Shown here: in pieces, positions 27,844-30,402 of the stretch
How positions within the stretch are numbered: the stretch's first letter is position 1
Layout of the letters: the number at the start of each line of letters is the position of its first letter
Source of the DNA: Acidobacteriaceae bacterium
Lineage (GTDB): Bacteria > Acidobacteriota > Terriglobia > Terriglobales > Acidobacteriaceae
DNA: 64,000 nucleotides
Assembly (NCBI GenBank): GCA_027452245.1
Contig: DAIDGW010000094.1
Coordinates: 48,152-112,151 of the forward strand
Reading direction: 5' to 3'
Notes under the pieces: generated by a model
The model's database searches: none
What the model saw: the letters and a program-made list of their open reading frames with translations, nothing else
What the model was told of the DNA's origin: nothing
Program-made: the position numbers and the translations under genes

Positions 27844-29661
27844 CTAACTGGAATGAACCGAAACCGCATCCGCTTGCGCGTACAGTTCGTCAATCTGCTT
27901 TCGGTAGCGTTCTTCCACCACTCGCCGCTTAAGCTTCATGGAGGGTGTCAGGATTCCATTGGCGATCGAGAACTCATCGGCCACCAGCAAGACTCTTTTC
28001 AGCTTTTCAAAGCGCGCCAGATTCTTATTCAGTTCTTCGATGATTTGCTCATAGAGCGCCTGCACCTTCGGGCTGGCAACCAATTCCTCGCGCGACGAGA
28101 ACGAGACGTTATGGCTGCGAGCCCAGTCTTCAAGCAGCCCAAAGTTGGGCGAAACCAGAACCGCGGGAAATTTGCGGCGGTCTCCAAGAACTGCCGCCGT
28201 CCCGATCAGCGCGTTAAGTTTGAGCGAATTCTCGATCGGTTGTGGGGCGATGAACTTGCCACCCGATGTCTTGATCAGGTCTTTCTTGCGATCGGTGACG
28301 GAAAGATATCCGTCGGCATCGACGTTGCCGATGTCGCCGGTCTTGAACCACCCCTTTTCGACGATGCCGTCTACAAATGCATTCCGCGTCTCTTCGGGGC
28401 GGTTCCAATATCCTTTGAAAATCGACGGCCCGCGAGCCAGAATCTCGCCATCTTCGGCAATCCGCACTTCAACATTCGGCAGGACCTTGCCCACTGTCCC
28501 GATGCGGTGATTCAGCGGAGTATTTACTGCGACCACCGGAGACGTTTCAGTCAAGCCGTAGCCTTCATGAATGCGGATGCCGACAGCTGCATACCACTCC
28601 GCCAGTTCTCGCCCCAGCGGCGCTCCGCCGGAGATGAAGGTCTCGACGCGTCCGCCCATGCCCTCGCGAATCTTCGAAAATACAAGCTTGTTCGCCAGAT
28701 TCCATTGCCATGAAGCCGGAGTCTTTCCCGCTAGGACTTCTGGCTTGTGCCGTGCTCCCACCGCTACCGCCCAATCGAAGATGGATCTTTTCGGGACCCC
28801 CTGGGCCTTCTGCTTCGCCTGCAAATAGATCTTTTCGTAGACCCGAGGAACGGCCACGAAAGTATGCGGCCGTACTTCGAGCAATACCGATGGCAACTGC
28901 TCAATGAACGGACAGTAGGCCAGCGTCACGCCGTGGTAGAGCATGGCGAAGTCCACGTGGCGCGCGGTGATGTGGCAGAGCGGCAGGAACGAGACGCTGA
29001 TCATCCCTGGTCGCATTTCGTATCCGAGCAGGGAGTAGTTGATATTCGACGCGATGTTGCCGTGAGTGAGCATCGCGCCCTTGGAATTGCCGGTGGTCCC
29101 CGATGTGTAGACGATGGTTGCGAGGTCGTCGGAGCCGATTGCTCGCGCCTTTGCTTCAATTTTCGGAGCCAGTCGCGTTGTGGCGTTCGCGAAAAGATCG
29201 TGCATGCTGACGCATTGGATGCCCGGGGCGGCAGGCTCTCCGTTCAACTGGATTCGGTCCATTACCACGATCTTTTCGACCGCGGTTGAGGAGACAATCG
29301 AAAGGATCTTGCGCAGGTGCTGTTCCGAAGAGACGAATATCACGCGCGCTCCAGAATCCTTCAACACAAACGCCGTCTGCTCGGGTGTCAGGGTTGTGTA
29401 CAGCGGCACGGTCACTGCGCCCACGAGAAGGCTGGCTATATCGGCCACGGACCATTCCGGGCGGTTCTCGCTAAGGATGGAAACGCGGTCGCCTTTGCGG
29501 ATGCCCCATCGTTCCAGCGCCTGCGCGGTACCCGCTACCATGGCGGCGAATCGCTGCGATGAAATGGGCAGCCATTTCCCCATCTCGCGGTGCAGCATCA
29601 GCGAATCGAGACTCCGTTCTACTGCCTTGAAGAAGATGTCGTTAAGCGTGGCGAGCGTCAT
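27844..29661 (-). CDS. Long-chain fatty acid-CoA ligase (AMP-binding)
   Basis: A 605-residue adenylate-forming enzyme that activates fatty acids to acyl-CoA. The AMP-binding P-loop is [16 protein letters not shown], followed by [10 protein letters not shown] (A5) and the hinge/A8 region [19 protein letters not shown] with the catalytic lysine near PSMKLKR. The start at 29661 matches the family N-terminus. The longer frame to 29817 would overlap the divergent peroxiredoxin start and is rejected. It resembles the FadD15-type bacterial ligases. Confidence 0.92.
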
Positions 29662-29811
29662 TGGCGGAGTGGCCCACACATCGTATGCACAGCACTCTAC
29701 TGGTTTCCGCCCTCGTTCGGCAATCGCCAATGTACGAAGGCCACTCCTGCGGCACGGTTTGCGGATACGCCTCGGCAAGAGTAAGCTGGCATCATTCTGT
29801 GGGAGGACGGA

Positions 29812-30402
29812 ATGCATACAAACTTTGGGCGATTCCTCGCTGCCAGTGCGCTGGCCGGCGCCCTGCTTGCCACGAGCGCAACCCCGCTATTCGCGCAAAG
29901 CAAGGCCGCCAATGCGAGCACGAAAGGAGCCTCAAGCATGCCGAAGGTCGGAGAGACAGCGCCGAATTTCACGCTGAAATATTTTGACGGCACCGATCTG
30001 AAAGATGTCTCACTGAGCCAATATCGCGGAAAGAAGAACGTCGTCCTGGCGTTCTATATTTTCGCCTTTACCGGTGGTTGAACGCAGCAGATGAAAAACT
30101 TCCAGGCGAATTTGAAAGCCCTGGAAGCAGCCGACACCCAGGTCCTGGGTGTGAGCATGGATAGCGCCTTCGCCAACAAAGCCTTCGCCGACCAGATTGG
30201 TGTCACGTTCCCGCTTCTCAGTGATTGGGGCGGCAAGGTTACCCGTGAATACGGAATCTACGAAAACCAGTATCAAGCGCCCCGCCGGGTGAACTTCCTC
30301 ATCGGCAAAGATGGCAAGATCCTCGAAGAGCAGGTCGATAAAGATGCCATCGATCCCAAAAAAATCGTGGATGCCTGCCAGCGTCCGAAGCTGAAAGGAT
30401 GA
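29812..30402 (+). CDS. Exported peroxiredoxin with in-frame TGA (probable selenocysteine) at the catalytic site
   Basis: The frame runs 196 residues if TGA at 30079-30081 is read through. A signal peptide (about 1-29, ending LFAQ) is followed by an AhpC/TSA peroxiredoxin fold: VGETAPNFTLKYFDG, NVVLAFYIF, VLGVSMDS, FPLLSDWGGKVTREYG and RRVNFLIGKDGKI. The family motif PxxxTxxC appears as IFAFTGG-TGA, so the codon at residue 90 replaces the peroxidatic cysteine. No frameshift and no other stop occurs, and the start has GGGAGG upstream. The only cysteine, C189 near the C-terminus, may be a resolving residue. Selenocysteine is the best reading; a point mutation of TGC/TGT is the alternative. Confidence 0.85.
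30079..30127 (+). promoter_or_regulatory. Candidate bacterial SECIS element
   Basis: After TGA (30079-30081) there are 17 nt, then CTTCCAGG (30099-30106) pairs perfectly with CCTGGAAG (30120-30127) around a 13-nt loop starting CG. The G is second in the loop, 26 nt after the UGA. This fits the bacterial SECIS model as I know it: a UGA-proximal hairpin, an apical loop about 16-37 nt downstream and a G in the first two loop positions. Confidence 0.75.

Follow-up and report, generated by a model that had tools for sequence, protein, structure and literature searches.

The gene at positions 29812 to 30402 (+ strand) of the acidobacterial DNA stretch analyzed here (64,000 nucleotides [nt]; the window) raises two linked questions: is the TGA that lies within its peroxiredoxin frame read as selenocysteine (Sec), and which RNA signal would direct the insertion? 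The answer we favor, with a probability of roughly 80% on sequence grounds, is that its product is a peroxiredoxin, predicted to be exported, in which UGA specifies Sec, directed by a likely SelB-binding hairpin (HP2) whose loop lies 60 nt behind the codon and which a second, intervening hairpin (HP1) would bring into reach.

Peroxiredoxins (Prx) are a listed bacterial selenoprotein family. According to passages of a 2006 survey, the family had 12 members, with five changes from cysteine (Cys) to Sec and none from Sec to Cys, and the Acidobacteria had four selenoproteins in three families (PMC1794560). Passages of other work give 43 Prx selenoproteins for the Sargasso Sea set (PMC1088965) and three selenoproteins found by deep-Sep in the acidobacterium Occallatibacter, whose families the passage does not name (PMC12013277). 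A 2026 review defines Prx by TxxU, terms PxxxTxxU highly conserved, and notes that a subset of bacterial Sec insertion sequence (SECIS) elements departs from the model (PMC13188914). The Sec-peroxiredoxin family is already known, and what is new here is the recoding signal; in searches of open-licence literature, neither a Sec-peroxiredoxin exported by acidobacteria nor a distal SECIS of two hairpins in bacteria was found described.

Selenocysteine is the very likely reading of the internal TGA

With the internal TGA counted as a sense codon, the gene has 196 codons plus a terminal TGA. Between the ATG at 29812 and the terminal TGA at 30400-30402, the TGA at 30079-30081 (+ strand, residue 90) is the sole in-frame stop, just as the original prediction had described it, except that 106 codons follow it rather than the 105 given there. 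The ribosome-binding site that had been proposed corresponds to a ribosome-binding-like GGGAGGA stretch, identified by eye, at 29801-29807 on the same strand. Pfam AhpC-TSA (PF00578) scored 118.9 bits (cut-off, 26) over residues 46 to 170, a span that includes the TGA, and in an alignment with solved AhpE-type peroxiredoxins the TGA fell on their catalytic Cys, which agrees with the peroxidatic position assigned to it.

We then read this codon at the DNA level in homologous genes from the Acidobacteriota. A class-wide search matched 278 of 299 genomes at E ≤ 1e-15, and from it we took the best-scoring matches and all 16 stop-free ones among the matches listed, a total of 185 genes in 171 loci (169 TGA, 12 TGC, and 4 TGT). 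A phylum-wide search matched 48 of 297 genomes at E ≤ 1e-25; 47 of the 49 matches carried TGA, and TGA was found at the Sec codon in all 20 that were fetched. Because two genes had entered the set twice, the number of distinct genes is 203 (L022/L051 and L023/L055 each stand for a single gene, counted once in this set and twice among the 185). The DNA counts exclude L080, whose contig begins 3' of the codon, as well as L081 and L082 (29% identity). TGA occupied the codon in 187 of the 203 distinct genes and TGC or TGT in the other 16, whereas TAA or TAG was never seen (0/203). Homologues were thus found with TGA or Cys at this position, the comparison that the original prediction had recommended. 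They also retained intact 3' halves, the decay of which had been named there as a warning sign. The ratio of nonsynonymous to synonymous substitution rates (dN/dS), measured against nine relatives (two of which are the same gene), was 0.04 to 0.13 before the TGA and 0.05 to 0.10 after it; selection is purifying on both sides.

These observations bear on two other explanations of the stop codon. One holds that the gene has decayed into a pseudogene or that the TGA is a sequencing error; it fits with there being one TGA only in the window gene and with the use of assembly sequence instead of raw reads. Given the same codon in 187 of 203 distinct genes of many genomes, with no TAA or TAG, and the low dN/dS behind it, we consider this extremely improbable. 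The other holds that TGA is read as tryptophan (Trp) or another residue under a changed code, and Trp indeed stands at the Sec position in 8 of the 22 database proteins fetched. However, TGA also serves as the terminal stop of the window gene, one of 39 such genes among the 187 distinct TGA genes (TAG ends 85 and TAA 63), the codon alternates with Cys codons only, and Sec machinery is present, so that a changed code appears just as far-fetched. Many of the relatives in protein databases are 109-residue C-terminal pieces or carry the Trp; both kinds of entry are likely annotation artefacts, the Trp entries likely being gene calls made under code 4.

The genome that contains the window (6.23 megabases, 97.6% complete) has every component of Sec insertion that the original prediction had suggested looking for: matches to selA (549 bits), to selB (371 bits, with SelB winged-helix domains), and to selD (365 bits, itself with a TGA), and a tRNA-Sec with anticodon TCA. 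In the window itself, ARAGORN detected no tRNA. Among the matches listed, each of the 118 genomes of the class that had a TGA homologue also had selA, and none of the 78 genomes without selA (no match at E ≤ 1e-50) had one (Fisher's test, 3e-21, with related genomes that are not independent). Taken together, the homologue codons and the co-occurrence with selA indicate that the window TGA is very likely read as Sec.

Three other genes of this genome were seen to carry an in-frame TGA: selD (L019, G000:C108) and an FdhA-like gene (L209, G000:C215), both at the expected Sec position as judged by eye, and a deiodinase-like gene (L211:1088-1783 on the - strand, G000:C105), at SYTUPPF. L211 scored 196 bits against NCBIfam deiodinase_rel (cut-off, 250).

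Two conserved hairpins lie behind the UGA of the window clade

Bacterial SECIS elements have 16 to 37 nt between the UGA and the loop, according to passages of two papers (PMC13188914 and PMC10778597). HP1 alone was our first reading of the signal, but a scan of all stems over 90 nt then identified HP2 as the stronger element. HP2 (30134-30152, + strand; ACACCCAG-GUC-CUGGGUGU) spans 52 to 70 nt behind the UGA, with an 8-base pair (bp) stem and a GUC loop at 30142-30144. It shares with the consensus bacterial SECIS, as given in those passages, the 8-bp stem and a 3-nt loop starting with G-U; it differs in its UGA-to-loop distance of 60 nt, vs 16 to 37, and in having a conserved hairpin in between. 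This hairpin is HP1 (30099-30127, + strand), also of 8 bp, and when it is taken out, the distance shrinks to ~31 nt.

Both hairpins were paired above a synonymous-codon null. Among 50 distinct clade sequences, 98.3% of HP2 cells were paired, compared to 77.5% in the null, and 94.8% of HP1 cells, compared to 79.6%; all eight pairs were intact in 88% of sequences for HP2 (null, 5.7%) and in 68% for HP1 (null, 16.7%). Synonymous constraint peaked over the HP1 and HP2 codons, and the 79-nt fold of the window sequence had a free energy of -29.1 kcal/mol (z = -3.45). Across 55 sequences, the G-U of the HP2 loop was invariant, the loop-closing pair exchanged G-C for A-U in 10, with more changes in L237, and 20 cells were changed on both sides of a pair, vs 6.2 after shuffling (0 of 500 shuffles). 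L236, whose HP2 lies 3 nt nearer, was left out of the A6 set. At gathering thresholds, Rfam gave no match in the window.

These features suggest a mechanism in which the HP2 loop, with its G-U, would be bound by SelB with Sec-tRNA. HP1, still folded, would sit between this hairpin and the ribosome and leave a path of ~31 nt, in place of 60, from the UGA to the loop. We propose HP2 as the SECIS read by SelB and HP1 as its folded spacer on the basis of conservation, geometry, and the published 16- to 37-nt rule.

The roles could also be reversed, with SelB bound to HP1 as the true SECIS and HP2 acting as a pause or stability element. The HP1 loop starts 25 nt behind the UGA, inside the usual range, HP1 is conserved above the codon null, and G stands at its second loop position in 45 of 50 sequences. 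Its loop, however, has 13 nt, vs 3 to 9 in the published model (as stated in a passage of PMC13188914), the sequence of this loop varies, and HP1 is under weaker constraint than HP2, which has the invariant G-U loop of the 3-nt size of SECIS loops. Moreover, three other genes of the window genome, for SelD, the FdhA-like protein, and the deiodinase-like protein, carry G-G loops (20, 18, and 17 nt behind the TGA, respectively). This exchange of roles is unlikely in our view, and we retain HP2 as the candidate SECIS.

Proximal and distal layouts are alternatives among relatives

More distant relatives instead form a hairpin whose loop, GGN or GUC, is placed 23 nt behind the UGA. Over 113 sequences, pairing reached 93.3% of its cells, vs 54.8% in the synonymous-codon null (maximum, 58.8%), 36% in Cys genes, and only 4.8% in the window clade; both-side changes numbered 37, vs 13.1 after shuffling (0 of 500 shuffles). 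L176 and L177, which were left out of this covariation count and kept in the 185-gene, 203-gene, and layout counts, are Sec-peroxiredoxins on a long branch that lack both hairpin layouts as well as the C-terminal Cys.

Hairpins of at least 6 bp with a G[G/U]N triloop were sought in all 187 distinct Sec sequences. At least one was found in 147, compared to 9.2% in nulls and 1 of 16 Cys genes, with loops at 23 nt (92), 60 nt (53), 57 nt (1), or elsewhere (4). When 5 bp was allowed for the proximal form, 98 of the 187 were proximal and 54 distal, and none had both. The distal genes of the window clade form a single branch of 53 rows (Shimodaira-Hasegawa-like approximate likelihood ratio test, 100), of which 48 were distal, 5 unassigned, and none proximal. 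Since L237/L231 and L236 have the distal layout and were placed outside this branch, the distal layout probably has more than one origin, although these genes are on long branches of unsure placement. With HP1 excised, 56 of the 61 genes with a loop at 54 to 64 nt fell into the 16- to 37-nt range.

A covariance model of the two hairpins had one match in the window genome, at the peroxiredoxin gene, and 37 matches in 36 of the 61 genomes searched. All seven inspected matches from outside the training set begin directly behind the in-frame TGA of a TxxU peroxiredoxin. Of these seven, L245, L246, and L247 are TPVU-type peroxiredoxins with the same two distal hairpins and no evident signal peptide; L248 to L250 have the proximal layout, and L251 belongs to the window clade.

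Observations that weigh against the favored explanation

Several results count against the explanation that we favor. With a column-permutation null, the excess of pairing was small, both for HP2 (98.3% vs 96.5%; maximum, 97.8%) and for HP1 (94.8% vs 91.9%; maximum, 93.2%). Pair types in the covariation analysis numbered 12, vs 12.3 after shuffling (418 of 500 shuffles), and five of the eight HP2 pairs never vary. RNAalifold returned the full HP2 and four HP1 pairs only, with a covariation term of only -0.22. In a minimum free energy test of a whole 66-nt region, the window gene had a z of -0.18 (mean z, -1.0 for 81 TGA genes and 0.0 for 16 Cys genes), a weak result because the region cut HP2 off. 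There is also no Cys control for HP2, because the 16 Cys genes belong to other branches.

Further such points come from the relatives. Neither hairpin criterion was satisfied by 35 of the 187 Sec genes, and the effective distance missed the 16- to 37-nt range in 5 of 61 genes (12, 12, 14, 38, and 38 nt), although three of the five (L046, L084, and L191) are proximal genes with a 5-bp match that arose by chance. The C-terminal Cys discussed below is missing in 7 of the 187 TGA genes. Finally, G054, a second genome of the same genus, has selA and no close homologue; the gene is lost there and the Sec trait retained.

The predicted protein and its proposed chemistry

A signal peptide is predicted at 29812-29898 (+ strand), a hydrophobic stretch ending near LFAQ whose extent was set by eye, and a hydrophobic N-terminal stretch was found in 168 of the 171 genes scored by a hydropathy proxy with no signal-peptide program. 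The earlier proposal of an exported Sec-peroxiredoxin, signal peptide included, gains support from this N terminus along with the homologue codons, the Sec machinery, and dN/dS, although its SECIS in the window clade appears to be a distant hairpin and not the close one that would be expected.

The original prediction had also singled out Ile in place of Pro in PxxxTxxC/U as an alteration. The window motif, IFAFTGGU, does have this Ile, but it is not unusual: Val (100) or Ile (52) holds the position in 152 of the 187 TGA genes, Pro in 27, and other residues in 8. The Pro is a usual trait of the Sec-containing family without being an exclusive one, since peroxiredoxins with and without it fall in one tree. 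We considered Pro loss as an adaptation to Sec and found this unsupported, with Pro kept in 27 of 187 Sec genes and Val present in 8 of 16 Cys genes.

The codon of Cys189 (30376-30378, + strand) had been named as that of a possible resolving residue, and conservation argues for this role. Among the 187 TGA genes, 180 have a Cys 90 to 112 residues behind the Sec, 15 of the 16 Cys genes have one in the corresponding C-terminal region, and C189 was invariant in 40 aligned sequences. Cys189 is likely the resolving residue on this evidence. We propose, from family knowledge and conservation, that Sec90 would attack hydroperoxides in the cell envelope and be converted to a selenenic acid, that Cys189 would resolve this as a selenenylsulfide, and that a thioredoxin-like protein of the envelope might reduce the latter.

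The predicted structure (predicted local distance difference test, 91.4) has an AhpE-like fold, close to that of AhpE of Mycobacterium tuberculosis (1xxu and 4x0x), which has Cys, not Sec, is a 1-Cys enzyme by its Protein Data Bank title, and was solved as a chain without a signal peptide. By analogy, the window protein might be a 1-Sec peroxiredoxin, in which an external thiol reduces Sec90 directly and Cys189 is structural. We regard this as a real if lesser possibility: the window protein has a conserved second Cys, kept in nearly all TGA and Cys genes counted above. We also compared human peroxiredoxin 5 (1hd2 and 1oc3), a Cys protein in contrast to the predicted Sec protein of the window, whose second Cys is likewise far downstream (47/151, from a passage of PMC7920247, vs 90/189 in the window). 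A PRDX5-like resolving site was rejected; the spacing is similar, but C189, at the end of the structural alignment, falls on PRDX5 residue 161 and not 151.

Compared with the Sec-containing Prx family (PF00578, TxxU; passages of PMC1794560 and PMC13188914), the window protein shares the AhpC/TSA fold, the predicted peroxidatic Sec, and TxxU. It differs in its predicted export and conserved C-terminal Cys, most members of its group have Val or Ile for the Pro of PxxxTxxU, and its clade has the distal two-hairpin signal. PrxU (NCBIfam NF040737) is likewise a thioredoxin-fold peroxiredoxin and matched a similar region; membership in it was rejected at 84.6 bits (cut-off, 270).

Exchange of Sec and Cys, and gene context

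Cys rows occur at dispersed places among the Sec rows of the protein tree, with 12 changes, at least 3 of them forced by well-supported branches. Seven Cys genes of a nested set (L108, L112, L113, L115, L116, L117, and L118) retain one or two of five hairpin pairs, whereas eight sister Sec genes (L157, L158, L161, L165, L167, L171, L172, and L182) retain four or five. This pattern likely reflects a change from Sec to Cys with decay of the signal.

Two neighboring Sec-peroxiredoxin genes occur at 14 loci (L046, L047, L049, L050, L083, L084, L087, L090, L124, L127, L131, L143, L153, and L156); it is conceivable that such genes form a hetero-pair. The window gene is solitary between neighbors of opposite orientation. 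Upstream lies a divergent AMP-binding gene (27844-29817, - strand; acyl-CoA ligase-like by eye), and an AMP-binding-like gene is similarly upstream in L055. No functional link emerged from the gene neighborhood in the window or, among relatives, from the whole neighborhood of L055.

Implications

The analysis adds a widespread predicted exported acidobacterial Sec-peroxiredoxin to a known selenoprotein family. The RNA side is weightier than the protein side, in that a SECIS-like hairpin conserved at 60 nt violates the distance rule by which bacterial selenoproteins are found. On balance, we lean toward a second, distal class of bacterial SECIS, in which a G-U-loop hairpin lies 57 to 60 nt behind the UGA and a conserved folded-spacer hairpin sets the effective distance. 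This class would have arisen repeatedly in acidobacterial peroxiredoxins, where it would replace the proximal hairpin, carry the widespread exported Sec-peroxiredoxin, and be invisible to predictors limited to 16 to 37 nt. The two alternative layouts within one protein family amount to a natural experiment on the spacing of SelB, SECIS, and ribosome. If the spacer reading is true, present scans would overlook a class of selenoprotein genes, and Sec insertion signals could sit wherever the protein sequence permits.
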